Source: Arbacia lixula
Taxonomy: Eukaryota > Echinodermata > Echinoidea > Arbacioida > Arbaciidae
Length of the DNA: 64,000 nucleotides
Direction: 5' to 3'
Assembly (NCBI GenBank): GCA_963669155.1
Contig: OZ022589.1
Coordinates: 10,096,845-10,160,844 of the forward strand
Positions 824 through 52,804 of the stretch are shown here, piece by piece; within the stretch, counting starts at the first letter, position 1; each line of letters begins with the position of its first letter. Below the pieces are notes generated by a model, which was not told where the DNA came from, did not search any database, and saw only the letters and a program-made list of their open reading frames with translations. The position numbers were made by a program, and so were the translations under genes.

Positions 824-1878
824 TAAAATACACTGTTCAACGTGTGCAGGGATTTAACAGGGGTGAACCCCCCCCCCCCTCCCCTTACCCCACCGTTCAA
901 AGATCCTCCCCCTATTTCGCGTGAGTGCGTGCAGTGTGGTCATCCTATGAACATGATGTGAATGTATTACTCCCTTACAATATTGAAGGTGGTCGAATGT
1001 GTAGGGTTTAAGGGAGGCGGAACCAGGGGCAGACGGGAGAGGGGGTGCAATAATACCCCCTCCCCTCCCTCCCAATTTCGCCAGCTCAATAACGAAAACA
1101 TGATGTGCCCTTTCTCCGTCGGAATAATGCTCTTCTTGATGTAATGAATGAGATTGGGTCGTATGAAAATGACCTTTCGAAAGTACCCCTTTTCAAACGG
1201 GAGACACGCGCTCTGCTCATATAATGATGACATCGTGCTTCCTATACCCCTATACCCTCCAGTGATCAAATGCATCCATACAATTGTAGAATCACTTGAA
1301 ACAGAGAGAAACCGTAAGTGTCTTGAGCGATGATAGCATGTGCCCCATCTCGCAATAAAAAAAAAACTGACCCCTCTTGCAAGAATACGAATATGCCCCT
1401 AATTCGGCATTATAACATGACTTTCCTATACAATGCCGTCTCTCGTCTAGTTATAATGAATAATAATGTATCGCTCCGCAAGATGATAGACTGTGCTTCG
1501 GAAACACGCCATGCAACCATAAGCCTGTAACATTGGAAGTCTGATCCTATGACGGCTGCACGGAGGTACTAATACTAACAGACAGCAAGCTAATTGCCGC
1601 CTATGGGAAATGTGAACATAAACAATGGCGCCCTCATGAGACAAAATATACAATTGTGCACAATCTCGAGCTATGGTCCATCGAGAATACGGATACCTCT
1701 CTCCCATGTATATGACAATATACCATCACTTGAGATGATCATAATCTTCTTTATCTTGACCTATCAATCTTGATTTCTTTAACTGCTCTGGCTGACAAAA
1801 GACGTCTTTTTTTTTTTTTACGTGATTCGAAAGAGTATTAAAAACAGAAACAGAGCAGATCTAACATCGCATTCAAAG
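824..1878. other. No recognisable gene
   Basis: The stretch holds a C-rich run near 870-885 and short open frames without family resemblance. I see no supported feature. Confidence 0.35.
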
Positions 1879-2036
1879 AAAAGTCGTCCATGATGCACTG
1901 CGCAGCCACAGCCATGTCCGCTCCTGCTCTAGGTTGCCATACTAGTGTTCCAGACCGGAAGTGGGCATGACTACAATTCTTTTTTTTTAAATACACAAGT
2001 CCCTGCGCTGTTCATTAAAGGACGACTCCCCCTATA
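1879..2036. mobile_element. Palindromic short element, copy 1 of 4
   Basis: The left end 'agtcgtccatgatgcactgc' is mirrored at the right by 'gcgctgttcattaaaggacg'. Towards the middle are 'gccatgtccgctcc' and the opposed 'ggaagtgggcatgac'. The same foldback design recurs at 10375-10557, 32415-32550 and 54846-54962. There is no coding content; it behaves as a non-autonomous DNA element. Confidence 0.6.
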
Positions 2037-2935
2037 TGGAGTATGGAAAATGTTTATAGAAGTGGGAGAGATTGCAGAACCCGTAACCATGGCACCCATA
2101 TGAAATTCAATAGTGACGTAGAATTAAAAAGAAGCACATCTTGAAACGAATACTTCTTTGTAGTTGTCATTTTCCCCCTTCTTCATAATCATATCGTTAC
2201 ACAGAGCTGGCGGAAATGTCGCCGATAACAGCACTGATTCATTCGATTGAGTCACCTAGATATTAAGGTGTCAGGACAAGACTCTGCATCGAACCTCACA
2301 AACACTTTATAGTTCTTCCATTATAAGTGCAGCTCTTAGGCGGTACTCTATTCTACATTCTGTTGTATTTACACACTTTTATTTCTAGGCCTACCTTTAA
2401 GAAGTACGTGCCTTTCTCTGTGAGCAGATGCAATTAGTTATCATCACATGTAATACAAATGGATTTCCATGGCAACAAGTGCGCAATAAAGAGACCCGAA
2501 CGAACGACCAAGCTTGACGCTAAAGTAGAGCAAACATTCAAAAACGTTCATTATTTTACTTTGTATATACTTCACGCGGAGTAAAGTGAAAAGCGGAGCG
2601 AGATAAATGATTCAACCATTCAAACATTGGCGGTGGACAAGCTTGGCAGCAATTATAGATAGTAAATGAGCCGTTACGAGAAGTGTTGCATGATATGACT
2701 TACAGCAGTGCTCATTTGATGTGAGAAGTTTTTGACATGTTGCGCTTTTGCTTGATATTGTGCACAATGTTTGCCTCTATCATCGAAATAGAACGTTATC
2801 ACATCAGATGGGAAGATCTATTTTCTGTATAGTTTCTGTTTTATTGTTTTGGTTTTTCTTTTTGCGAGGCGCACATTTACAATAAAACAACACTTTGGGT
2901 AAGCCCGTGTGGATGTGAACAAACATGCGATTTCT
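2037..2935. other. No recognisable feature
   Basis: AT-rich non-coding sequence; I see no exon, repeat or RNA structure that I can support. Confidence 0.35.
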
Positions 2936-3009
2936 CTTTCTCACTCTCCCTCTCTCTCTCTCCCTCTCTCTCTCTCTCTTTCACACACATACACACACAC
3001 ACTCTCTCT

Positions 3010-3076
<67 letters not shown>
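2936..3076. repeat. CT-rich microsatellite followed by (TA)n
   Basis: The block is interrupted (CT)n from about 2936, pure (CT)n up to about 3050, and then (TA)n to 3076. Open frames here are low-complexity artefacts. Confidence 0.95.
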
Positions 3077-3077
<1 letters not shown>

Positions 3078-4737
3078 CGAAATCACTAGCGACCTCGTTT
3101 CCTATAGAAGCGTTGAATATCTCTACGCTCTTTTTCTCTTACATTTATTTTGCCTATTTATATCTTTAACAAATATAAGACTTATAGAAAAAAAACCTGT
3201 TATTGTCAATATTACTTACATCATATACTGTATTTTAACATACAAAAGATACTTAAACCTATGCATATAAACAAAACAAACATTCGATACATAGTAGAAT
3301 GAACTTACTCGTAAATATCACACAATCAAATGATCAAAAATAAGTTTATTTACTCACCGTCATTTGGATACCTCAATTTGCTTTAAAACTTGAATATCGA
3401 TCTTTAACTCTTTTTGTTCTAGACGAAATACTGCTCTATGGGACGTGCGTGTATTACAGATGCAGAGACGATACCATGGTATGTAAAGAGTTAATCCGTA
3501 TAGTCTCCTTCTCCAGGGGTCGGGTTAAACTGCGATTCAAACTATCATTAATCCTTTCTTTGCCAGATGAAATGCTGTTCAATGCGATTTGTGTACATTA
3601 CTGATGACGAAATACACCTTGGCACGCAAAGAGTTAAATCATTGATCGTGTCGTAGAAACACACACGTTAAATGGCCGAAGGAGAATGTCGGGCACGGGC
3701 AGGAACAGTTAAACAGTTTAACGCTCTCACTGTCACGGCTTCATCCACTGTGTTATAAATGCGATGGTCTCTCCATGCCTTGGTGCCAAATGGGCTTACA
3801 AGAAGACAACACACAGTTATGTGGCAGTGTCACGTTGTACGACGTCGTGATATGGAATACTTTAAGTTGGCTGTCAGACGGTGATTATTGGGATATAGGC
3901 CTGTTGCATTAGTATAGGAAGTAGGAATAGACGTCGATTACTTCACAGCATAGTTACCTATTATTAACCCGACATTCTTTCTCGACGTGATAATTACAGT
4001 GTGGACGGCTTTATTTCCTTGTTTGATGTAAACAATTACTAAGACAGCTTTTCACGATGTCCAGTTACTATATTACGAGGCCATCCTAACTGGACATTCA
4101 GAGTAACGGTACCTGTATGTACGCCAACATTTGGTCCGAAATGAGGATTGTGATTAGGATCACTAACATGACTGATATCTAAATTGACAATGCGTCGTTG
4201 AAGTTTACATTTGTTCTCCGTTGGCAAGGTATTTTTGTTTTCATTGTATCAGTGTACACATAGTGTTTTAGAATCAAGGCATGAAAATGGCAGGCATCAC
4301 TTCTTACTCTCAAATGTCAACAATGGATTCTTATCACGTACATTACTACTAGAATAATTTTGTTAACTTGGTCGGACAAAACGCGAATAATTTTGTATAT
4401 TCTTTTCTAATGTTACGGGGAAATGCAACTTAAAAAATATGTGGAAGGTTTTATCACCAATGCATTGCGATAAGTGTCTTGGGAACGTTGCGCATACTAA
4501 GCCACTTTCGTAATGTATTCACAAATATCCCGGTAACTACGTAGTAACTCCTAATAACGTTCAATTCGTTTTGATGGATGGAGCGGAATCTGAATGTATC
4601 AGTCCTTCCTACTCAGCCAGATTTCGGACAAGCTTTTGGGTTACCATTATAGTCCAGTCGCATAGCTCGATATGTATAAATAAAACAAAAGAAAAGAGGA
4701 ACAAAAAATCCCTAGAAAGGTTCTGCTGAGGAGTAGG
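3077..4737. other. No recognisable feature
   Basis: About 1.7 kb of AT-rich sequence with only short open frames on both strands. I see no family resemblance and no clear repeat. Confidence 0.35.
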
Positions 4738-23536: not shown

Positions 23537-26500
23537 CTGTTTTGAGACAGAGAACAGTTGAAAATAAAAGGAGCTTGTCATATCGATCTATTCATACCGG
23601 TATGGCATAGATTTTCTTTGCACATTCAGTTTGAAGTACCGATAAATGTTCTTAAACCTGTGCATAATAAAGTTGTTCGAAATCATAGCGTCATCAAATT
23701 TCAATTGCAGCATTAAATAAACGTTCTGATTCTGAAAATATGAGTCCTCAGCCAAATATTTTGTTTTTCCTAAGTTTCACTTCAGTAAGAAATAATTGTA
23801 GTTTGCATGGGGGCTAAGGCTTGTGTTTGTGTACTTGCCAAAATGCATCATAATCATTTTGAGGATTAATTATAACAACCCAAAGAGATCATATGATGCT
23901 CTTCATTTGCACGAAAAGACTTTTTAAAGGTACTGTACACCTATATCAAATTTCGTTAACTGTTTGATTTAAAAAAAGACAAATCTAAAAAGTACAACTA
24001 CACTTTTCCCGAATATATACAAAAGTACATATGAATACATACATACATTTCGTTATCAGGCGGACAAACCCTTGGTGATTATAGATCATTCTGTTATATA
24101 TATATATATATATATCATGTAACAGTACATTTGATTTTCTCGAAACGAAGGAGTTCAGGTTCAGGTCTCCTTCGATGCAAATAGGGAATGCAGGCGAAAT
24201 GATGAGGTCTTACATGCATTTGCATGTCCAGCGAAAGTGTGTCCGATCAACAATAAATGGTGACTCTCGGCGACCTTCAAGAGTTTGAATTTAGGCTACG
24301 CCTACGTAAGCTTACCTGTAATTGGACAACCAATGAGCGTTCCGATGCCAAAGCTCAGTTGGATGACGACCTCAGAACTTGCGAAGCGGTCGAGTGACGC
24401 CCTCTCGCGCGCGATCATGGACAGCAAAATGACCTTTGCTCCAATGCAGAACGCACACATACAAGGCACAGAGATGAGAACGTAGTACCAAGGAACGAGG
24501 ACATCCACGAGTAGTGAAGCGATGTTTACCAGGGTAAGGATGATGAAGAAGAGTGACGGGCTGCATAGGTTATGGGTTACGAGTCCCGCCGCCAATCGGC
24601 CGCAGCAGCTTCCGCACGCGGCGATAAGGGTCATCAAAACTGTTTGATCGATGGAGAGACCTCGCTGTAGCGCATGTGGTATCACGAAAGAGTGCCAGGC
24701 AGAGGAGATAATCATGGTTGTTATGCAATTCACGAATAGAAAGTTGAAGAATGGGTCTTGGTAAAAATCTGAATCCCAAAAGCAGCGTAGTAGTTTTCTC
24801 ACAAAACCGTGTTCTATCTCTGGCTGAGCTGTGCTCGATTGTTGAGAGATGGCTTCATTCAATATATGGCGAGTAGAAAATGGCGTTACATTATGATCCG
24901 TGGACGAAGAACCCGACGAATCCTGTTCAATTAGAGGCAAATTTTCCTCTTCCATCACATTGTTCCGTGATCCTGTTGTAGCCGCAATAGCCTTTCCATC
25001 ACTCTTTATGGCGAACGCAAAAGGAACTGTGTTGGCCATAAACCCACCAAGAACGAGCATGCCGCCTCGCCAGCCGTACGCTGGCAGCAGGCGAGAGGCC
25101 AAGTACGGGACCAAGGCCATGGCGACACCGGTACCGGTCTTCCCGAGGCCCAATATCATGTTGAAGTTTTTCCCAGCGACTTCATCAATAACAACCGCTG
25201 CACACGTCTGGATCACAGAGTGGCCGAGGCCTGCAAAGAGTAATTAATTAGGTAGAGAATAATGATGCATATTTGTTGTACCGCACCGGTTTCTGCATGG
25301 ACGAGTGCACTAGCTGCCCATCATAATATTATTTGGTCGACAAAATGGCTACCAGCACATAATATGATTTAACACCTTCTCTACCAGATTCCATACTATC
25401 CTATGGGGAAAATTTGTATTACAACGAGTGCAAAAATACTGCAATGTTGCATAAAGTTGAATTGAGTGAGAAGTCGGCAATAAGATTCAGAAGATGACTG
25501 TTCCTCGATGTTCCTGGATTCGATGTTTGGGGATTTCATGTTTCGTTAACAAATACTCGCTCGTATTCTGTATGTTTAAATATGTGCACTAGCACATGGC
25601 TCAAAATCAAACTCTCAATAAATGCTAACTATACATGTATAGTTAGCATTTATTGAGAGTTTGATTTTGAGCCATGTGCTGGTGCACATATTTAAACATA
25701 CATATGCTCCTTTTAACGAAATATTGCATTAATTTTCCATTGTTGCATCATTATTCTGTTATTACACATTCCTTCTGATATTGCATAGTCATTGTGATCT
25801 TCCTTAATAGTAACATTAACCACCTTAACTTCACTTGGCATACTCTCTTATTTTTAAGCATATCATCTTCTTCATGTAGTAATGTCATCCTCCGACACAC
25901 ACAGATCACGAAGCTTATGTTATGGAGACGATCACAGTGTATAACAGTATCACAATTAATCTACACTTAAAACCAATTAAGCTACTCCTTTATAAGCCAC
26001 ATCTCATGATTATACTCTATTTGATATGTCCGATGTTTTCTATTGTTAAGCATTGCAACGTATCATGACTGTTGTGCCATGTTTGCCGTGGACCGTATAC
26101 TACTGTATATCGAAAGTGCTCAAATCCACATTCGAATGTCGCTTCCTAACGTTACCTCTCGTTTAACTGTATAATGAGCAACGTTTGAATATCTGGATCC
26201 TCTTTTAAAGATTGTCCGTCCCTTTTGCAAGCTTAAAATTTCAAATCGTCTATCAGGATCGTAAATTGAAGAAAGTATGATTCAAGACCATTCCTAAGAA
26301 TATAGCATGTTGAAGCTTTCTGTATATGTAAAAAATTTCAGCCGTTAAATTTCAAACCGACTTTTTTCGTACTACGAAAAAGTATTAGTCTTTGTTACAG
26401 TATCTATGTAGTTATTATGCGTGTGTGAAATCCTAATTTTATGAGTAACTACCAAACTTTGGACACGATTCCTTCCATAGAACAATTTTTTTTCATAATG

Positions 26501-29500: not shown

Positions 29501-32500
29501 TCCCAGTATTCACAACTGTCTCGAATCTCTTGGTGTTGCACTTTGTTATTCGTTATCAAATTAAAATCATCCGCATACGGCGTTGTTATGATTCTGGTAC
29601 CATTCAAGTCATATCCTAGACTATCTTTCAATTGGCCGAGATATTCAATGAGAGGGTTAAAACAAGTCAAGAAAATGATGGGTGAGAGGGGATCCCCCTG
29701 AAACACTCCTTTTTTAAACATGAATGGTTCGGACGACCATTTGTTACCTTTTACACTACCTTGTAATCTACTGTACAAGTTTTCAATATACACAGTCAGA
29801 TTGTTGGGCACATGAAATCGGCGTAGGGAATGGGAGATTAACTCATGATAAAAGCCTTCTGCACACTACGATCAATGAAATTATTTGTAGTCAAGTAGTC
29901 AACTAGGCGATTTGCAAGTACTTGATGGAAAACTTTACTTACACAAGAAGTTAACGAAATCATTCTGAAATTTTCTGGTGCATTTGTATCCCCGCCCTTG
30001 TGTATGAGCGTTACTTGGCAACGGGACCAGCTCTCAGGGGGGTCATGTGTTTCGAGAAGGAGTAAATAACTCCTGCCCAATTACGCAGAAAACCTAATTA
30101 CAGGAAAGTACCAAGATCACCGTGGATAAGCAAAACCCTCCTAAGATCAATCAACCGAAAAAAACAACTTATACTACAGATATAAGCACAACTTTAATCC
30201 CACAACGCGAGCCAAATATACTATACGTACAAAAATATACTCACAGCTATGCTGCGAAGTGCCAAAAGAGACTATTTTGCAAACAAATTTCACAACAACA
30301 AACACAACACAAATGGCACGTGGAAGACTCTGAACAGCATTCTTAACAAAAAAAAAACTGCAAGATAACTTTTACCAAATAATATTAGGGAACGAAACAA
30401 TAAGAGAACCGACATTAATTGCACAACATTTTAACAATTACTTTGTAAATGTTGGTCCAAACTTGGCAAATAAATTACCACGCACAAGCATTGACTTCAA
30501 GAACTTTATACAGGACCCCAATCCTAACACACTTCCCCTGTATCCAACAGATGCGGCAGAAATATCAAACATTGTTACACAGTTCAAAAACGACAAAAGT
30601 CCAGGCTTCGATAATATCAACAACACTGAAAAGGATTCTACCCGACCTACTTATCCCACTAAATCATATCTTCAATTCATCCTTGACAACAAATGAAAAT
30701 TGCGAAAGTTGTACCAATATTCAAAAAAGGAAACACAGCTCTTCTTACCAACTACCGTCCAATCTCGCTTCTAACAACCTTTTCTAAGATCCTAGAAAAA
30801 AATCTTTATAAGCGACTTGTCTATTTTGTAACACGAAACAACATACTTAATGACACACAATTTGGCTTCCGCGAAAACCACAACACATCACATGCCCTAC
30901 TGACACTATAATACACAAAATAAGTAAATCACTGGATGATAGGCTACATACTATTGGTGTGTTCCTGGACTTCTCCAAGGCCTTTGAGACAGTTGAATAC
31001 AGCATATTGTTAAATAAATTGTCGCATTACGGTGTCCGAGGTAAGGCCTTGGAGTGGTTCAGGAGTTACCTAGACAACAGGAAACAATATGTAGTAACAA
31101 AACACTGTGAATCTGAAATGAGGAATGCTTCATGCGGCATTCCCCAGGGCTCAATTCTAGGTCCCTCACTATTCATTTTGTACATAAACGACATAATTTT
31201 TTATGCAAATCTTCCAAATTGTTATCATTGTTATCAACAGCTGGATACATGCAAATAGACTTTCTCTAAACCTTGACAAAACGAATTACATGCTTTTCAG
31301 CAAAACTCTCTCACTCCTCCCAAACCCCATTCTATTCAACACTACTACTTTACAAAGAGTACAATCCACTAAATTCCTGGAGGTATACGTCGACGATGCC
31401 CTCACTTGGAAACTCCATGTTAATGAGTTATGGAAGAAAGTCTCACGTAACATCGGAATTATCAACAAACTCAAACACTTTCTCCCTCAACACGCACTTC
31501 TATGCCTCTATTCCGCTTTCGTGCTTTCACACTTGAATTTTTGTATTCTGGAATGGGGCAATTGGTTCACGTCACAAGCAAATAAGATAGTATTACTACA
31601 AAAAAGAGCAATGAGAATAATAAGTGGTACAAGCTACCGAGAACATACCAATAATTTATTTTACCAAAGCCGAGTCCTAAAATATCACGATCTCTACAAT
31701 TTAAGTCTAAGTTCCTTCATGTACCAGCTACACAATAAACATAACCTCAAAACATCCTTGATTTATTCTGTAGAAACCGAGACGTGCATAACTATCCCAC
31801 AAGGCAAACAAGCCTTTATCATCTCCCACTGACCCGGACATTATGTCGCCAAAGAACATTTTTATATCAAGGACCGCAACTGTGGAACTCACTGAGCAGT
31901 GAACTGCAGTCATCCGTAACCATCTATAGATTCAAGCGCAGGCTAAAGCGCAGCCTAATCGACGCATATCGCACACCCCCGATGCTTAGTTTATTTTCTC
32001 CTACGTATGCCCTTCACCTTTAACTCCCCCCCCCCCTCCTTTACGGCACTTTGATTTGATAAATGTATACATCTTTATGTATGTAATCTCATATATTGTA
32101 ACGGGGAGCCTATAACCATACAAGCTTCGCTTTTTTATAGGCTCCCCCCACATTGGTATATGTAATCAATTTTATGTTATTGAAGTGTACAAGCAGTCAT
32201 TTAATATTGTTTTCGATATGCATTCTATTTACCTTGTTAATGTCCCTCTTTATTTATCTGTATATGCATGTGAACGTATCATTCCATGTACTTGTACGTT
32301 GTATGTTTATGTTTATATGTTTGTATGTGGAAATAAATGCAATTCAACACATCTAAATGATTTAGTGCCTCCTCAATATCCCTAATTTTAGGCCTATAGG
32401 CCTATAAGGAAGAGTCATCACATGTTGCATCACGCTGGTCACATTCGGATTTTGCTTGCAGTCATGTCCGCTAATCCCGGTCGTGTGGACATGACTACAA

Positions 32501-33154: not shown

Positions 33155-36100
33155 ATTCATGCGACAAGACGGAAGGGGAATAAGAAGAGAGAGAGAGAGA
33201 AAACTATGAAAATATGTACATTCTAACCAGACTATTCAAGAATACATGTAGATGACATAATAAATAATATTTAGAAAATTGTAAAATTTTCGGTAACACC
33301 ATGCGGTTGTATTCTTTCGGATAACTGACCCACTTATGGGTTGAGGAAAGGAAAAAAAGAAGTGAAAAGGAGAAGAAGTGATTTTTTTTAAAATCTTATA
33401 ACATTAACACAAGACTGTTTTAAGCTTTAGTTTACGGTGTTTTAAAGCGAAAATAAATGGGATGAAATAGAGGTAGAAGAAGAGGATGGGTGGTGACTGA
33501 GAGTTGTGAACTAGTAACAAAGAAGTTATAAAGACAAAAAAAGGGGGGAGGAGAAAAAATGTGGAGAAGTTATAATAAGTTTTACAACGAACTGTAGTTT
33601 TCTTTCAAAATCTGAAAGAGAGAGAGTATCAGTCTCGACTTTTCGGGCAGTGTGCTCTGTCAATCAAATGAGCGCGCCGAATATTTATGAGATCCGAAGG
33701 AATCCGAAATAACCCGAGAGTGTCCGAAACCGGCGAATAAGATGACATGTTTTCAAATAGATGTCATGTTTTCAAATACATTTTATTTCCATCTCTGTAA
33801 GCGCCATATTGATCATATTGATGCATGTTTGCATAATTAATATACACCTGTAGCTCGTAGAGCAGCGGCTAATTTGGCGCACAAATGGTTAATGCCTGAT
33901 GCAATTCAATTCAATTCATCGTCGCAGCCATGCAGCTGAATTACGAAAATTTACAATGTAAAAACAGATATACATACAACATACGAAATAATACAATCAT
34001 CCTTTGCAAGTATAAATATTAAAAAAGGTTCTTATTAATAAAGTGAAAACTAACAAAGATGAATATACATTAAAAAGATTGTGGGTTTCTTTAAAATGCA
34101 TTGTAAATTCACTGTACGACAATAAGATGATAACCGCAACTACTCTATGTCAGCATTTGAATCTGTCAAAACATAAGATAAGGATATATTGCAAAACGTA
34201 TGTAAAGTACGTTAGTTTAGGTAAAGATAACATTCTCATCAATAATATGATCCCCACCAATAATCAAAATAGTCAATGTAATGATCGTCTTTAAAACGAA
34301 TAATAAAAATTATTGGACGACGAGGTTGATGGGAGCACCCTGATGGGGGCAGCATTCCTTGTATGTGTCTTGTGATGGGAGCAGCATCATATCTGCCTCA
34401 CAATGTGTTTAACCAAGCAACCATAGAGCCAAAAACCTGAGGTATGCTCAAGAGCAAAACTTGGCTTACCCTTACAAATATTAAATACTACTGGTGTTTT
34501 TTTTCCCCAGTCGTTCTTCGTTCCAGTCGTTCTTGGTTCATTTAAAGGATGGTCCACGTCATCCTCACCACTGGGTGTATACCTACCAATTAAGAGAAGG
34601 CCTACCCCAGAAACCCAATTCACGAACATCTTGCCGAATAATTGTGTCGGTGGCGCGTGGAACGAAGTTGCAAGACTTACCCAATGCTATAACATCCTAT
34701 AATTTTCTTGTCTGTAAAGGGGTGGGGGTTACTGTAGGCTGAGTAGTTTGATATAATTTTGTTTGTGATTTTGTTGGGGGGGGGGGGGGTGCATACATGT
34801 GTTTATTCGTGCCTTTAGATATGGGGGTGTTTATGTGTGATTATGTGCTTTATATTTTGGTATTGTATTAATTGTGTTTTTTTTTAATGAAGCTAAGAAA
34901 GATATCAAAAATAATTAGTATGGTGACGAATGTTTGACTGTAACTACGTTAAACACGGCAATTCGTCAGGATAAACGTACGATCATCCCGGCCTCAAATG
35001 TAATCATAATACCTGATTAATGAGCAAAACAAAAAAAATGTCAGTATTAGTAAACAACTTTGCAATAAAACGATGAAAAATAAAACCCAACCATTGAAAA
35101 CAACATATGTATGATATACATTCATAAACATAAACAGTCACATAAATCTGAAGGAATAACATCAAATTTCTCGGATAGGCATTGTCGTGGTAGTGAGGCT
35201 ACGCCTCTTTAAGTGGATCTTGTCATTTTTTACCTCATGAAATATTCTGTCTATTTCACTCAAAAACATTCATTATTTGTATATTATTATCCATTCAGAT
35301 GTTTGAATATATTATGCTCGAGTTGTTTCTCCTTCCTTACACATCCCTGATTTGCCTTTACCTCTGACACGGTGCGCCGGTGCACGTGAATCAACAAAGT
35401 CACGTAAACATGGCGTTTGTTTTGATCTACTGTAGGTGTCATATAAAACAAATCATGAATGTTTTTTATTTCGTGCAATTGACAGAATCTTTCAGCTCAT
35501 GAAATATTCTGTCCACTGCACTCATAAACATTCATTAGTTGTACACTGAGCATGTACGCAACCACGTTTTGAACTAAACGCATATCAAAACGCTCATTTT
35601 GGGCCCCCATAAACGCATCCTTAGATACTCAAGCTCGTAGTGAATATGAATACTTCAGTGGTTCTTTTAGCAAAAACAGTTTTATGACAGGCAACTCCTC
35701 AGCTTCAAATGGGAACTGAAGTTTTATGTGCATGACTCTGGGTGACAGGTTTATGCATCATTTTTCTTTTGAATGGAGATAACTCAATCAAAACGCACAC
35801 GTACACAAAAGAACAGTTAGACCTCAAGAGCACGTCTCCAAAAATGCTTTTATGTGAGAGCTGAAGTTGTGCATGGTACGCTGTATTTTTGATGTGGCAA
35901 TGCCTTCATCTGAATCACAAAAGAACATATGTTTTGGGAAGTATGCCAACCGTTCAGCCTTCGCTGGGAGTTCAATACTGCCAAATTATTTTGCCCAAAA
36001 CCTCTGCGACAACGATTTATGGTATTTTGCATGGGGGGGGGGGGGGGGGGAAAGCTTTTTTGTTGTGTTTAGTTTGCGGGTGAGCAAAGGGAAAATTTGA

Positions 36101-42724: not shown

Positions 42725-45703
42725 ATGGGCCGCCGCGGTATAATGCATCTCTCCCTTTTGTTGCTTATCGTTCACCTGGCTCAATCAGAAGCTTTCACTC
42801 GCTTCGTCATTCCACATTTCGCGAGGAATGAATGGCAACAAAAGAACAATGAACTGAAAGAACCGATAGCACCCATTCAACGGGACTTAAACCATCGCAT
42901 CCTGACACCAAACATGCCAAAGGAGGCCGCCGATTCTTTCAGCCATACAGTCTTCGACTACTTCGCCTCGCAACCCGACTTCGTCCAAGAAAGAAACTCT
43001 CAGGCATATATCGAACACGAACCGAAAACTCTAGCCGATGCGAGGAAAAAGAAGAACATTCTCCGCCGAAAAGCATTCAGCAAGAAAGGCACAGAGGAAG
43101 ATAGGAGAAACTTTCGGTCAGCAGTTAAAACAGTATCCTTTCTGAAAAGGCGAACTGACAAAACAAAAGCTGAAAATACCACAACTCACCAAGAAAATAT
43201 GTACAGGAAAGACTTCTGGAACTTTTCGAAACAAGTATGTAACGGAGACTTTAACAAAGCTACGCCCACCATATCCTTCTCGAAAGAAACGGCGGATGAG
43301 TACTATCCTGGAAAATATTCTCAAGCAGAGCACATTGACTTTAATAAACTGCAATGGTTCCCTTTTATTAATGTAGATGAATCAAACCATGAATTCGATT
43401 TGACCCCAGTAAACCCTAAACAAGTGAAATGGGTATTACAGGCCAAGAAGGCCTCTTCCGCCCCCGGGCCAGATGGCCTTATGTATGGTTTGTTGAAAAA
43501 TACCCCTTGTGTTCACCATTTTTTGGCCACCCTATTCTCCCAACTCCTTCTCGAAACACATGACCCCCCTGAGAGCTGGTCCCGTTGCCAAGTAACGCTC
43601 ATACACAAGGGCGGGGATACAAATGCACCAGAAAATTTCAGAATGATTTCGTTAACTTCTTGTGTAAGTAAAGTTTTCCATCAAGTACTTGCAAATCGCC
43701 TAGTTGACTACTTGACTACAAATAATTTCATTGATCGTAGTGTGCAGAAGGCTTTTATCAACGGAATTAACGGTTGTGTTGAGCATAATCAAGTCTTACA
43801 TGAAATAATGTCACATAGTAAAGCCAAGAAACGCACTGTGCATGTAACGTTCTTTGATTTAGCTGATGCTTTTGGGAGCGTAAGCCATGAGTTAATCTCC
43901 CATTCCCTACGCCGATTTCATGTGCCCAACAATCTGACTGTGTATATTGAAAACTTGTACAGTAGATTACAAGGTAGTGTAAAAGGTAACAAATGGTCGT
44001 CCGGACCATTCATGTTTAAAAAAGGAGTGTTTCAGGGGGATCCCCTCTCACCCATCATTTTCTTGACTTGTTTTAACCCTGTCATTGAATATCTCGGCCA
44101 ATTGAAAGATAGTCTAAGATATGACTTGAATGGTACCAGAATCATAACAACGCCTTATGCGGATGATTTTAATTTGATAACGAATAACAAAGTGCAACAC
44201 CAAAAGATAATCGATCAGTTGCACTCATACACATCATCGATGGGACTCAAATTAAAGCCTTCCAAATGCTGCAGTCTTTCTATCTGCGGAGGTGTCCCGA
44301 AAGATATTAAGTATTCATTTGGTACTGACAGTATCCGTTCAATCAAAGAAAAACCTCACAAATTCTTAGGTTCGCTTATTTGCTTCAGTGGCAAACCAGC
44401 CGAAGTATGCGATTTCGTCCAAAATGAAATCTGCGTCAAGCTTCAAAGAATAGATGAATTACTTGTGCGGCCCGAGTTTAAGGTGGCCATCTACTCACGA
44501 TACCTCCTCAATTCTATCCGGTTTTTGCTTTCAGTTCATACACTACAAAAGACCCACTTAGATAAACTTGACGTAGTAACCGATAAATACCTGAAAAAAT
44601 GGTTAGGCGTCCCTTCTAACGGCGCCAACGTCGCTATGGTCCACCTACCCCAAGGTCTCAATATCCCTAGACTATCTGATATTTACCGTCAATCCCAATC
44701 TCTCGCTTTGAGCAGATCGAGGGCTAAAGGTGATAAAGTAGTTAATCAAGCGATTGACTCTGCTATTGAAAGAGAATCACAATGGTCACGTAAACAGTCA
44801 ACCGTCGTGCAATGTAACGCAACCCATTGTAAAGTTGAGAACTCGGTCAATGTTCAGACAAGTCCATGGCCCACTGTAAAGAACTCTGTTAAACATGTAA
44901 TAGAGGAAGATGCAGTTAAATATTGGTCTGAGAGAATAGCTCCTCTCTTGGTTCAGGGAAAATTTGCCTCATTACTGTTATTGGAAAACGAGAACCTAAC
45001 TTGGAAATCGATTATGTACAATCTTCCAAGACGAGTCCTAAGTTTTATCGTTAATGCGTGCATAGACTCCTTACCCTCATATAAAAACCTGCACACCTGG
45101 GGTAAACGCTTAAGTGATAAATGTAAATTCTGCCCTGGTACCACAGGCACACTCCATCATATACTCTCGCATTGCCCAGTCTTCTTAGATAGGTATGAGT
45201 GGCGACATAATAATATTCTGAGGTACATGCACAAAATATTCCTCGAAAATCTGCCTAACGGGAACATTTACACTGACTTAGAAGGGCATTCAATCGCCGG
45301 GGGCACCATACCTCCTCACATTCTCACAACAAGTCTGCGCCCAGATTTAGTCATTCTAAGGGAAGAAGAAAAGGAGGTCATAATTGTAGAGTTAACTGTT
45401 CCATTTGAAACTAACCTAGAGGCTGCACATCAAAGAAAAGTAGAAAAATATAGCTTAATACGGAGGGACATAAAGGAAAGGGGGTATACCGTATCTTTTT
45501 ACGCAATAGAAGTCGGGGCAAGGGGCTTAGTAGACCGGAACAATAAACACCGCATAAAACAAATTCTAAAAACAACAAGCTCAAAAATCCATCCAACCGA
45601 ATTCTTTAAAACTCTTTCCAAACTTGCCATACTCTCCTCATTTTCAATATTATATGCCAGAAAAGAGCGAGCCTGGGGGGAGGTACGACACTTAGACCCA
45701 TAA
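42725..45703 (+). CDS. Reverse transcriptase with C-terminal zinc knuckle and restriction-like endonuclease
   Basis: About 992 residues from the first ATG (42725); the open frame begins 15 codons earlier. Counting from that earlier point, the RT motifs are PGPDG (262-266), FFDLADAFGS (391-400), GVFQGDPLSP (449-458) and the catalytic YADD (493-496). They are followed by a thumb and linker, a CCHC knuckle C815-x2-C818-x8-H827-x4-C832, an Arg-His pair (842-843), and a PD-(D/E)xK-like nuclease RPDL (887-890), E904 in VELTVPFE and K923 in VEKYSL. This order defines RLE-type non-LTR retrotransposons, which nick a chromosomal target and prime reverse transcription there. The N-terminus lacks visible zinc-finger or Myb repeats and instead has a hydrophobic MHLSLLLLIVHL stretch at about 22-33. 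All catalytic residues are present, so this copy may have been active recently. Confidence 0.92.
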   Translation: MGRRGIMHLSLLLLIVHLAQSEAFTRFVIPHFARNEWQQKNNELKEPIAPIQRDLNHRILTPNMPKEAADSFSHTVFDYFASQPDFVQERNSQAYIEHEPKTLADARKKKNILRRKAFSKKGTEEDRRNFRSAVKTVSFLKRRTDKTKAENTTTHQENMYRKDFWNFSKQVCNGDFNKATPTISFSKETADEYYPGKYSQAEHIDFNKLQWFPFINVDESNHEFDLTPVNPKQVKWVLQAKKASSAPGPDGLMYGLLKNTPCVHHFLATLFSQLLLETHDPPESWSRCQVTLIHKGGDTNAPENFRMISLTSCVSKVFHQVLANRLVDYLTTNNFIDRSVQKAFINGINGCVEHNQVLHEIMSHSKAKKRTVHVTFFDLADAFGSVSHELISHSLRRFHVPNNLTVYIENLYSRLQGSVKGNKWSSGPFMFKKGVFQGDPLSPIIFLTCFNPVIEYLGQLKDSLRYDLNGTRIITTPYADDFNLITNNKVQHQKIIDQLHSYTSSMGLKLKPSKCCSLSICGGVPKDIKYSFGTDSIRSIKEKPHKFLGSLICFSGKPAEVCDFVQNEICVKLQRIDELLVRPEFKVAIYSRYLLNSIRFLLSVHTLQKTHLDKLDVVTDKYLKKWLGVPSNGANVAMVHLPQGLNIPRLSDIYRQSQSLALSRSRAKGDKVVNQAIDSAIERESQWSRKQSTVVQCNATHCKVENSVNVQTSPWPTVKNSVKHVIEEDAVKYWSERIAPLLVQGKFASLLLLENENLTWKSIMYNLPRRVLSFIVNACIDSLPSYKNLHTWGKRLSDKCKFCPGTTGTLHHILSHCPVFLDRYEWRHNNILRYMHKIFLENLPNGNIYTDLEGHSIAGGTIPPHILTTSLRPDLVILREEEKEVIIVELTVPFETNLEAAHQRKVEKYSLIRRDIKERGYTVSFYAIEVGARGLVDRNNKHRIKQILKTTSSKIHPTEFFKTLSKLAILSSFSILYARKERAWGEVRHLDP

Positions 45704-50047: not shown

Positions 50048-50461
50048 AATAACACAGTTAAATGTTCTTTGAATGTTTCCATGGTGAGAGTGTACTAATA
50101 AATACTATTTAGAAAATAGCAAAACTTTCGGTAACACCATGTGGTTGTATTCTTTCGGATAATTGGCCCACTTATGGGGTGAAGAAAGGAAAGGAAAGTG
50201 AAAAGTGAAAAGGAGAGGTGAATTTTTATATTTTATAACACTTACACAAGACTATTTTTAGCTTTAGTTTTCGGTGTTTTAAACCGAAAATAAATGGGAT
50301 GGAATGGAGGTAGAAGAAGAGGGTGGGGGTTGATGAAAGTTGTGAACTAGTCACAAAGTAGTGATAAAGAGAAAAGAAAAGAAAAGAAAATGAGAAAAGT
50401 GTAGAAAAGTTATAGTCAGTTCTGCAACTAACTATAGATTTCTTTCAAAATCTGAAAGAGG

Positions 50462-50519
50462 GAGTATCAGTCTCGACGTTTCGGGCAGTGTGCTCTGTCC
50501 GTCATCCGGAGAATAACTC
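50462..50519 (-). ncRNA. Hammerhead-ribozyme-like motif (left arm)
   Basis: Exact mirror of the motif at 52370-52427; see that entry. It lies in the 3' untranslated part of the left PLE copy. Confidence 0.4.
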
Positions 50520-50728
50520 GAAGAAACTAACGAGCGCGCCGGGTATTTATGTGATCCGAAGGGATCCGAAATAACCCGAGAGTGTCCGAAATCAGCCAAT
50601 AGGAATAGAGCGTTTCGGCGCGAATGTGCTGTGTGCACTAGAGCGTGAAACAGCTGAATAGGTGCGAAAGTGCGGTGCGAATGCGCGGTGTGCACTGGAG
50701 CGTGAAACGGCGCGAAAGTGCGGCGTAT

Positions 50729-51437
50729 TCAATTCCCCGAGCTTTCGGGTAGGTCGTCGTCCCGTGTGCGTTGTGCGTGGTGGTGCTGCCGGTGTGCGTG
50801 GTGAAGAAGTGGCATCCAGATATCGTTGATCACAAGTCCGCTCTCCTGTGGTACCGTGTCGTGTTGAAGAATCTCGATGGCTTCTCTCACGCGCCGGGTG
50901 TGCCAGTGCTTAATGGATGTGATGAGTTCTGCGTTGGACCAGTCGATGCGATGATTCTGTTGCTGAGCATGTTTGACGATAGCTGATTTCTCCCACTCGT
51001 TCCGTCTAAAGCTGGTCTGGTGTTCCTTGAGTCTGGTCCTAAGGCTTCTTCCGGTTTCTCCAACGTAGAACTGACCGCATTCACACGGTATCTTGTAGAC
51101 TCCTGGTTGAGTGTCCGGCGGCTTCCTGTCTTTGTGGGTGAAGAGCTTGGAGTGCAGCTTACCTGAAGATCGGTGCCTGACCTGGATGTTGACGTTCTTG
51201 AGAATCCGCTGAATCTTGTGAGAAGCTTGTCCTATGTAAGGGAGAAAAACTGAAGCTAAATGTGGCGGAGCAGGAGTGCGCGGACGAGGTAGAGATGTCT
51301 TCACCTTTCGAGGAGGGTATCCGTTGATGCTGGTGAGCGCTGTCTTGATGTGCTGAAGCTCTTGTTGAAGGTGTTCCTCGTCGCTGATGTCGTGTGCTCG
51401 CCGGATGAGAGTACTGGATACTGACTGTAAAACAGAA
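50729..51437 (-). CDS. PLE GIY-YIG endonuclease domain, left arm (5'-truncated)
   Basis: The stop lies at 50729-50731. This arm's frame continues across the loop into the other arm, giving 257 open codons to 51502, but the codons beyond 51437 are antisense of the right arm rather than genuine N-terminal sequence. Domain content is the same as in the right arm. The reverse-transcriptase domain of a complete PLE is absent. Confidence 0.8.
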
Positions 51438-51451
51438 GGGTGATGAAACGA

Positions 51452-52160
51452 TTCTGTTTTACAGTCAGTATCCAGTACTCTCATCCGGCGAGCACACGAC
51501 ATCAGCGACGAGGAACACCTTCAACAAGAGCTTCAGCACATCAAGACAGCGCTCACCAGCATCAACGGATACCCTCCTCGAAAGGTGAAGACATCTCTAC
51601 CTCGTCCGCGCACTCCTGCTCCGCCACATTTAGCTTCAGTTTTTCTCCCTTACATAGGACAAGCTTCTCACAAGATTCAGCGGATTCTCAAGAACGTCAA
51701 CATCCAGGTCAGGCACCGATCTTCAGGTAAGCTGCACTCCAAGCTCTTCACCCACAAAGACAGGAAGCCGCCGGACACTCAACCAGGAGTCTACAAGATA
51801 CCGTGTGAATGCGGTCAGTTCTACGTTGGAGAAACCGGAAGAAGCCTTAGGACCAGACTCAAGGAACACCAGACCAGCTTTAGACGGAACGAGTGGGAGA
51901 AATCAGCTATCGTCAAACATGCTCAGCAACAGAATCATCGCATCGACTGGTCCAACGCAGAACTCATCACATCCATTAAGCACTGGCACACCCGGCGCGT
52001 GAGAGAAGCCATCGAGATTCTTCAACACGACACGGTACCACAGGAGAGCGGACTTGTGATCAACGATATCTGGATGCCACTTCTTCACCACGCACACCGG
52101 CAGCACCACCACGCACAACGCACACGGGACGACGACCTACCCGAAAGCTCGGGGAATTGA
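51452..52160 (+). CDS. PLE GIY-YIG endonuclease domain, right arm (5'-truncated)
   Basis: The frame is open from about 51453 to the stop at 52158-52160 (about 235 codons). It shows LPYIGQASHKIQRILKN, then the GIY-YIG core GVYKIPCECGQFYVGETGRS with LRTRLKEHQ. This is the C-terminal arrangement of Penelope-like retroelements, in which the GIY-YIG nuclease nicks DNA for target-primed reverse transcription. An in-frame TGA in the loop (51444-51446) precedes it, so no natural start is left. Without the RT domain the copy is not autonomous. Confidence 0.85.
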
Positions 52161-52369
52161 ATACGCCGCACTTTCGCGCCGTTTCACGCTCCAGTGCACA
52201 CCGCGCATTCGCACCGCACTTTCGCACCTATTCAGCTGTTTCACGCTCTAGTGCACACAGCACATTCGCGCCGAAACGCTCTATTCCTATTGGCTGATTT
52301 CGGACACTCTCGGGTTATTTCGGATCCCTTCGGATCACATAAATACCCGGCGCGCTCGTTAGTTTCTTC

Positions 52370-52427
52370 GAGTTATTCTCCGGATGACGGACAGAGCACA
52401 CTGCCCGAAACGTCGAGACTGATACTC
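52370..52427 (+). ncRNA. Hammerhead-ribozyme-like motif (right arm)
   Basis: Stem I pairs GAGT with ACTC and CTC with GAG around an internal loop. The core reads CGGATGA, where the consensus is CTGATGA. Stem II pairs GG-CAG with CTG-CC around 'agcaca' with one A-C mismatch. Then follow GAAA, a two-base-pair loopless stem III (AC/GT) and the cleavage triplet GTC. PLEs are known to carry such minimal type I hammerheads. The changed core base (T to G at position 4) makes activity doubtful. Confidence 0.45.
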
Positions 52428-52804
52428 CCTCTTTCAGATTTTGAAAGAAATCTATAGTTAGTTGCAGAACTGACTATAACTTTTCTACACTTTTCTCATT
52501 TTCTTTTCTTTTCTTTTCTCTTTATCACTACTTTGTGACTAGTTCACAACTTTCATCAACCCCCACCCTCTTCTTCTACCTCCATTCCATCCCATTTATT
52601 TTCGGTTTAAAACACCGAAAACTAAAGCTAAAAATAGTCTTGTGTAAGTGTTATAAAATATAAAAATTCACCTCTCTTTTTCACTTTTCACTTTCCTTTC
52701 CTTTCTTCACCCCATAAGTGGGCCAATTATCCGAAAGAATACAACCACATGGTGTTACCGAAAGTTTTGCTATTTTCTAAATAGTATTTATTAATAACAC
52801 AGTT

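Follow-up and report, generated by a model that had tools for sequence, protein, structure and literature searches.

The palindrome described here raises the question of how two copies of one retroelement come to lie head to head, almost identical to each other, as a single insert. The route by which Penelope-like elements (PLEs) are inserted, with their inverted pairs and optional tails, is an open question, and differences between the ends of their inserts help to settle it. The locus lies on contig C14 of the Arbacia lixula assembly (607 Mb searched), within a window of 64,000 nucleotides, by which we mean the whole stretch of DNA that was analysed. In window coordinates the parts of the insert and its target-site duplication (TSD) are the following.

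50048 to 50059, forward strand: left copy of the TSD, AATAACACAGTT, with GAAC just before it; present as a single copy, with 1-2 base differences, in the empty paralogous sites L063-L065.
50060 to 50096, reverse strand: tail of 37 nt, antisense of the start of the element's own ORF (ACCATGGAAACATTCAAAGAACATTT); it corresponds to unit positions 1-39, and in tandem arrays it runs on into the ORF without a break.
50060 to 51453, reverse strand: left copy, tailed and 5'-truncated, including the 14-nt loop; unit positions 3115 to 1720.
51438 to 51451, reverse strand: the 14-nt loop, native left-copy sequence (codons SFHHP in frame with the ORF; native DRYLNFKSFHHPSVLQ in the tandem copy L029) and not filler.
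51452 to 51453, no strand: junction of the two copies, a 2-nt (TT) overlap, unique in the genome.
51452 to 52792, forward strand: right copy, untailed and 5'-truncated, unit positions 1736 to about 3076; it contains the pseudo-LTR and the C-terminal part of the coding sequence (putative endonuclease), with an ORF at 51447-52160.
52793 to 52804, forward strand: right copy of the TSD, AATAACACAGTT, then GTA.

The palindrome is real, as described, in the assembly sequence. Its arms (50096-51437 and 51452-52793) measure 1342 nt each and differ at one position (50212 against 52677) on either side of the loop, in agreement with the preliminary description of this DNA, which had also recognised the 12-bp direct repeat that brackets the entire insert. 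Local alignment of the arms extends six bases further outward into tail and TSD with one gap and one extra mismatch, and the match at the outermost arm base is due to chance. The left tail reported earlier is present, its length being 37 nt and not 36 bp. At each outer end lies the 3' terminus of the family unit, and both arms consist of this same unit with the termini outward, which bears out the reading as head-to-head PLE copies. The terminus was further said to be common to a copy at 33259-33739; indeed, 33258-33742 on the reverse strand matches it at 80.5%. This relative, about 80% identical, is an older copy, single-ended, untailed and 5'-truncated, which lies between AGATGACAT repeats; its own terminus has a single match in the genome at up to 1 mismatch, which gave no basis for a test in this relative.

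The element appears, on the evidence of its sequence, to be a recently active PLE. The tandem copy L029, in which the unit is repeated, defines a unit of 3080 bp with an ORF beginning METFKEH, and three termini on C4 are spaced 3069 bp apart, as expected of tandem units with pseudo-LTRs (pLTRs). The copies in the window are truncated and lack the reverse transcriptase domain, which is matched by Pfam RVT_1 (E 2.6e-11) in the ORF of L047. After this domain we noticed by eye a GVY...YVGET motif, which we take to be GIY-YIG-like; the putative C-terminal endonuclease had no Pfam match and no relevant PDB match, and a single-sequence model of it was poor (pLDDT 38). Similarly, the letters at unit positions 2664-2710 resemble a hammerhead motif by eye; a hammerhead ribozyme had no Rfam match, and the fold of the window was no better than those of shuffles. 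Rfam microRNA matches, all below gathering scores, were rejected as chance matches of the models to the palindrome centre. A tail of 30-40 bp, already known as a feature of PLEs, is found in this family too and probably marks an internal start of reverse transcription.

Three other repeats were seen in the window. A fold-back repeat at 420-823, beginning near AAAGGGGAAGTTCACCC and with arms about 84% alike by self-match, looks like a miniature inverted-repeat element. A near-perfect palindrome of 134 bp (98.5%) at 25569-25702 lies outside the Penelope family. Finally, dispersed repeats at 29513-30063 and 43543-44221 form an inverted pair, 97-100% identical, suggesting another recently active element.

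In the genome, a 42-base pattern of the 3' terminus was found at 615 + 680 places, about 1,295 in all, and a pattern of the tail at 263 + 308 = 571 places, tandem joints included (both at up to 3 mismatches; no match for the reversed control of the terminus nor for the control of the tail). We read 62 loci of the element out of the approximately 1,295 termini. Neighbours were analysed among 100 listed exact places of the terminus pattern on C1-C5, 49 of which carry an exact tail. Among these listed termini, 21 of the 26 neighbour pairs within 6 kb are head-to-head, five have the same orientation and none is tail-to-tail. The junction of the palindrome occurs only once in the genome at up to 3 mismatches. 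The palindrome had been presented as unusual; however, head-to-head is the commonest close arrangement among the listed termini and is described for a rotifer Penelope in the available portion of PMC3846280. The palindrome is an ordinary product of a known kind of element, not an exceptional one. Of 40 groups of termini examined, which comprise the 38 listed on C1-C2 together with two from C3, 25 proved to be head-to-head inserts with both termini; the other 15 were not scored as head-to-head pairs, and dual priming would therefore be frequent but not obligatory.

The tails follow a strict rule: exactly one end is tailed in each of the 39 head-to-head inserts with two readable ends. The scoring covered 38 head-to-head rows, namely three initial ones, 25 from the 40 groups, eight pairs on C3-C5, and L057 and L058, which were picked as apparent exceptions. 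In the first 36 complete inserts the single tail was on the right in 21 and on the left in 15 (36/36). L057 and L058 run leftward into a further tandem unit, and their true left end (L060, L061) is untailed; together with L062, a complex insert that is also single-tailed, they bring the count to 39. Under an independent choice of tail at each end, and with inserts treated as independent, the probability of 39/39 is about 1e-12. With the exact lists only, 19/21 adjacent pairs carry a single exact tail; the other two show none, and no pair shows a double tail. The two without an exact tail were rejected as exceptions, L043 being closed by a further tailed terminus and L055 having a tail outside the exact list. 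The apparent double-tail cases on C8 were discarded likewise, since they are followed by a tandem unit whose end has no tail. The only pair encountered with two tails is L059 (C13:1711600-1715650), whose palindrome extends into host DNA by at least 344 bp on either side, with 343/344 positions identical; it is either an inverted duplication of host sequence or a fold-back of the assembly, and no dimer insertion. L059 was left out of the count. The same applies to L002, L005 and L008, which lack a complete pair within the locus, to L003 and L004 (far end beyond the locus; taken as untailed and used for arm lengths), to L029 (left arm without terminus) and to 14 single-ended or unscored groups, among them L012, whose second arm consists of 28 bp of tail only and which fits the rule. 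Single-ended copies with a TSD are either tailed (L019, L030) or untailed (L009, L017, L032), and therefore either start site works alone.

The complex insert L062 (C10:22999350-23005600) is made of four parts in alternating orientations; its outer ends keep the one-tail rule and share 12 bp, AATCTCAAAACT.

The flanks of the inserts were compared for signs of the target. A TSD of 8-15 bp is found in 32/36 inserts and measures 12 bp in 16 of them; those of L028 (13 bp) and L033 (14 bp) were added from separate inspection, and no clear TSD was seen in two of the 36 (L024, L034). As a control, flanks taken from different inserts share 8 bp or more in 14/1,190 comparisons. With the tail oriented to the left, the bases before the TSD are C at -1 and A at -2 (24/32 each), and those after it are G at +1 (21/32) and T at +2 (27/32). 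Such a target, AAC-N12-GTT, would be close to a palindrome, which is what one expects if two symmetric cuts leave 3' overhangs.

Divergence between arms was compared in 27 inserts whose arms overlap by 100 bp or more, leaving out L028, L057, L058 and eight with under 100 bp. It is lower than the between-insert mean in 22 of the 27, and lower than every between-insert comparison in 10. At the palindrome the arms differ at 1/1339 positions against a between-insert mean of 0.46%; the corresponding values are 0/1339 against 0.57% for L055 and 0/704 against 3.2% for L031. In the remaining five (L020, L034, L038, L040, L045) the arms are less alike than the between-insert mean; these inserts are probably older, because they are among the copies most different from all others. 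For short young arms the comparison has little power, and likeness of arms could also arise via later gene conversion. The shared variants suggest one source RNA for both arms.

Arm lengths were taken from 35 inserts whose ends were compiled by hand, complex inserts (L043, L047, L053, L054 and others) being left out. The longer arm is the tailed one in 19 and the untailed one in 13, with three pairs equal, and in 12 of the 35 the untailed arm exceeds the other by more than 5 nt. Ten of the 70 arms end at unit 2650-2660, about 30 nt past the ATAAATAC box, and this recurrent end near unit 2654 may be a start of transcription or of the RNA. Near-equal arms are in excess when all 35 pairs are used (p 0.0003-0.006), with no excess (p about 0.1-0.3) once pairs having both arms at the two recurrent stops are dropped; the two arms of an insert show a modest correlation in length (Spearman 0.40, p 0.018), also without the recurrent-stop pairs (0.38, p 0.034). 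Equal arm length was consequently rejected as a sign of one broken RNA, the excess vanishing without those pairs while the modest correlation stays, and the near-equal arms at the palindrome may be due to chance or to a shared RNA end. The 30 simple junctions comprise 12 with 1-8 nt of overlap (microhomology), two blunt ones, 13 with 1-36 nt of filler and three with more.

Several arms also end near TTCTGTTTTACAG, at unit positions 1712-1757 (for example window 51452), with L001 and L055 at 1736 and L059 at 1729; a reverse-transcription stop or an RNA end is possible there.

A query in which the two host flanks were joined at one 12-bp site aligned through the junction with three further copies of a dispersed repeat, on C3, C15 and C11 (78-83%). 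The evidence is paralogous and not allelic; each of these copies is without insert and carries the 12-bp site once. The palindrome thus reads as one insertion, because the target is found in three paralogous copies with a single site, and the preliminary description is supported in treating it as a single unit. A history of two insertions, of which the later went into the earlier or next to it, would gain some credit from the high copy number of the family; however, a single 12-bp TSD encloses the whole insert, the site occurs once in the empty paralogous sites, the arms are more alike than other copies, and the close pairs among the listed termini are head-to-head in 21 of 26 cases and never tail-to-tail, all of which leaves this possibility scarcely credible. 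A fold-back artefact of assembly or sequencing has a precedent in L059, the host-spanning palindrome of the same element in the same assembly. At the present locus, by contrast, the host flanks differ: no inverted repeat was detected between them (local score 11, below the 12 that marks the 95% point for 200 random pairs), and therefore the palindrome is no simple fold-back artefact. Since, in addition, the tail occurs at a single end and the insert has a TSD, we regard an artefact as very improbable.

We propose, with a probability of roughly 0.8, that the insert is one retrotransposition event of a recently active PLE in which reverse transcription was primed from both target strands. The TSDs and the flank motif suggest that an endonuclease, probably a symmetric pair, would cut both strands about 12 nt apart at an AT-rich AAC-N12-GTT-like site, leaving two 3' OH ends. 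In keeping with the observed pattern of ends, each 3' OH would prime cDNA internally on the element RNA near the pLTR-ORF boundary, one start site lying inside the ORF and giving the tail, and the second at the end of the pLTR, about 37 nt upstream. Each cDNA would run toward the 5' end of the RNA and stop, sometimes near unit position 2654, and the two cDNA 3' ends would then be joined with a few bases of microhomology or a short filler, the gaps being filled. Less certainly, both cDNAs may derive from one RNA held in a dimeric enzyme, with each protomer at one start site, as the strict one-tail rule and the often shared arm variants suggest. In its fullest form this would be a paired reaction: one RNA would be bound by two reverse transcriptases at fixed start sites separated by 37 nt, and the two strands of a symmetric cut, staggered by 12 nt, would supply one primer to each enzyme, with the tail as the footprint of the pairing, so that two-ended inserts would always be single-tailed. 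We advance this form tentatively, at slightly less than even odds, and its one-RNA version goes a step beyond the data. The mechanism is drawn from one family in one genome, and its endonuclease domain is putative. Against strand-specific starts, the available portion of PMC11167929 finds no difference in start site between top and bottom strand in bulk, and the dimer of the anole PLE protein given there is a predicted model only.

The alternatives to this dual priming differ in what they require of the two ends. Template switching and twin priming had both been offered before as ways of making an inverted dimer. In a fold-back, or self-priming, the 3' end of a tailed cDNA folds onto its own strand and is extended with that strand as template; for the rotifer Penelope, self-priming with an antisense template is proposed in the available portion of PMC3846280. 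At the palindrome, arms nearly equal with one base different, a tailed arm longer by 16 nt and a 2-nt overlap at the junction are what such copying could leave, and for this locus alone the near-equal arms would also fit. It should, however, copy the tail and then the target flank, yet the tail is absent from one end in 39/39 inserts, and at the palindrome itself an unexplained stop at the tail would be needed. Furthermore, in the 12/35 inserts whose untailed arm reaches more than 5 nt further 5' that arm is no copy of the tailed one, and fold-back of a tailed cDNA therefore cannot explain those 12. We consider fold-back improbable here, and as a general route of the family neither fold-back nor template switching is supported.

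In L1-type twin priming both target 3' ends are likewise used on one RNA, the second 3' OH priming internally, upstream of the first cDNA, so that the 5' part becomes inverted. In such a reaction the inverted and the direct segment derive from separate parts of the RNA and lack a common 3' end, whereas here both arms hold the same 3' terminus and overlap over 1.3 kb (unit 1736-3076); this explanation is accordingly very unlikely. Within dual priming itself, the two cDNAs could also have been copied from separate RNA molecules, both transcribed from a single source copy. The shared variants are equally compatible with several RNAs of one locus and with one RNA, and the arm ends are mostly unequal; yet this version by itself leaves it unexplained that both ends are never found to start at the same site, and the modest correlation between the lengths of paired arms gives a hint of a common RNA end. 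We hold it to be a possible version of our proposal, though a doubtful one.

Penelope of Drosophila virilis, likened here by description and without sequence comparison, has direct and inverted terminal repeats. Its tail, as cited in PMC11167929, is optional and of 30-40 bp. The anole PLE protein cuts and extends both strands, and two internal start sites bound the tail (PMC11167929, available portion). This element, Poseidon of Anolis carolinensis, resembles the present family also in its internal start of reverse transcription near the ORF start and in its tandem units; in contrast, its main start lies 111-118 bp into the ORF, against about 25 nt here, and the study is an in vitro one whose available portion does not state different sites for the two strands of one insertion. 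The endonuclease-containing Penelope of Adineta vaga shares head-to-head inverted pLTRs with junction palindromes, a 31-bp tail on one inverted pLTR, and an ORF start inside pLTR and tail (PMC3846280, available portion). It differs in its TSDs, 8-10 bp in the quoted cases against mostly 12 bp here, and in that the tail is called optional and self-priming is favoured there, whereas the one-tail result in 39/39 inserts argues against self-priming. In the literature examined (PMC11167929, PMC3846280 and PMC12910113), available in part and with older literature outside its scope, we found no statement of a strict one-tail rule. The present study adds, for one family in one genome, that this rule is strict, that arm lengths can serve as a test against fold-back, that the arms have variants in common, and that the target is symmetric.

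For annotators, PLE palindromes are normal products in this genome, and palindromes that run into host DNA, such as L059, are not. The many recent copies within one genome provide ends sharp enough to argue against self-priming as a general route of insertion, and the one-tail pattern predicts a paired two-strand reaction with mutually exclusive start sites.
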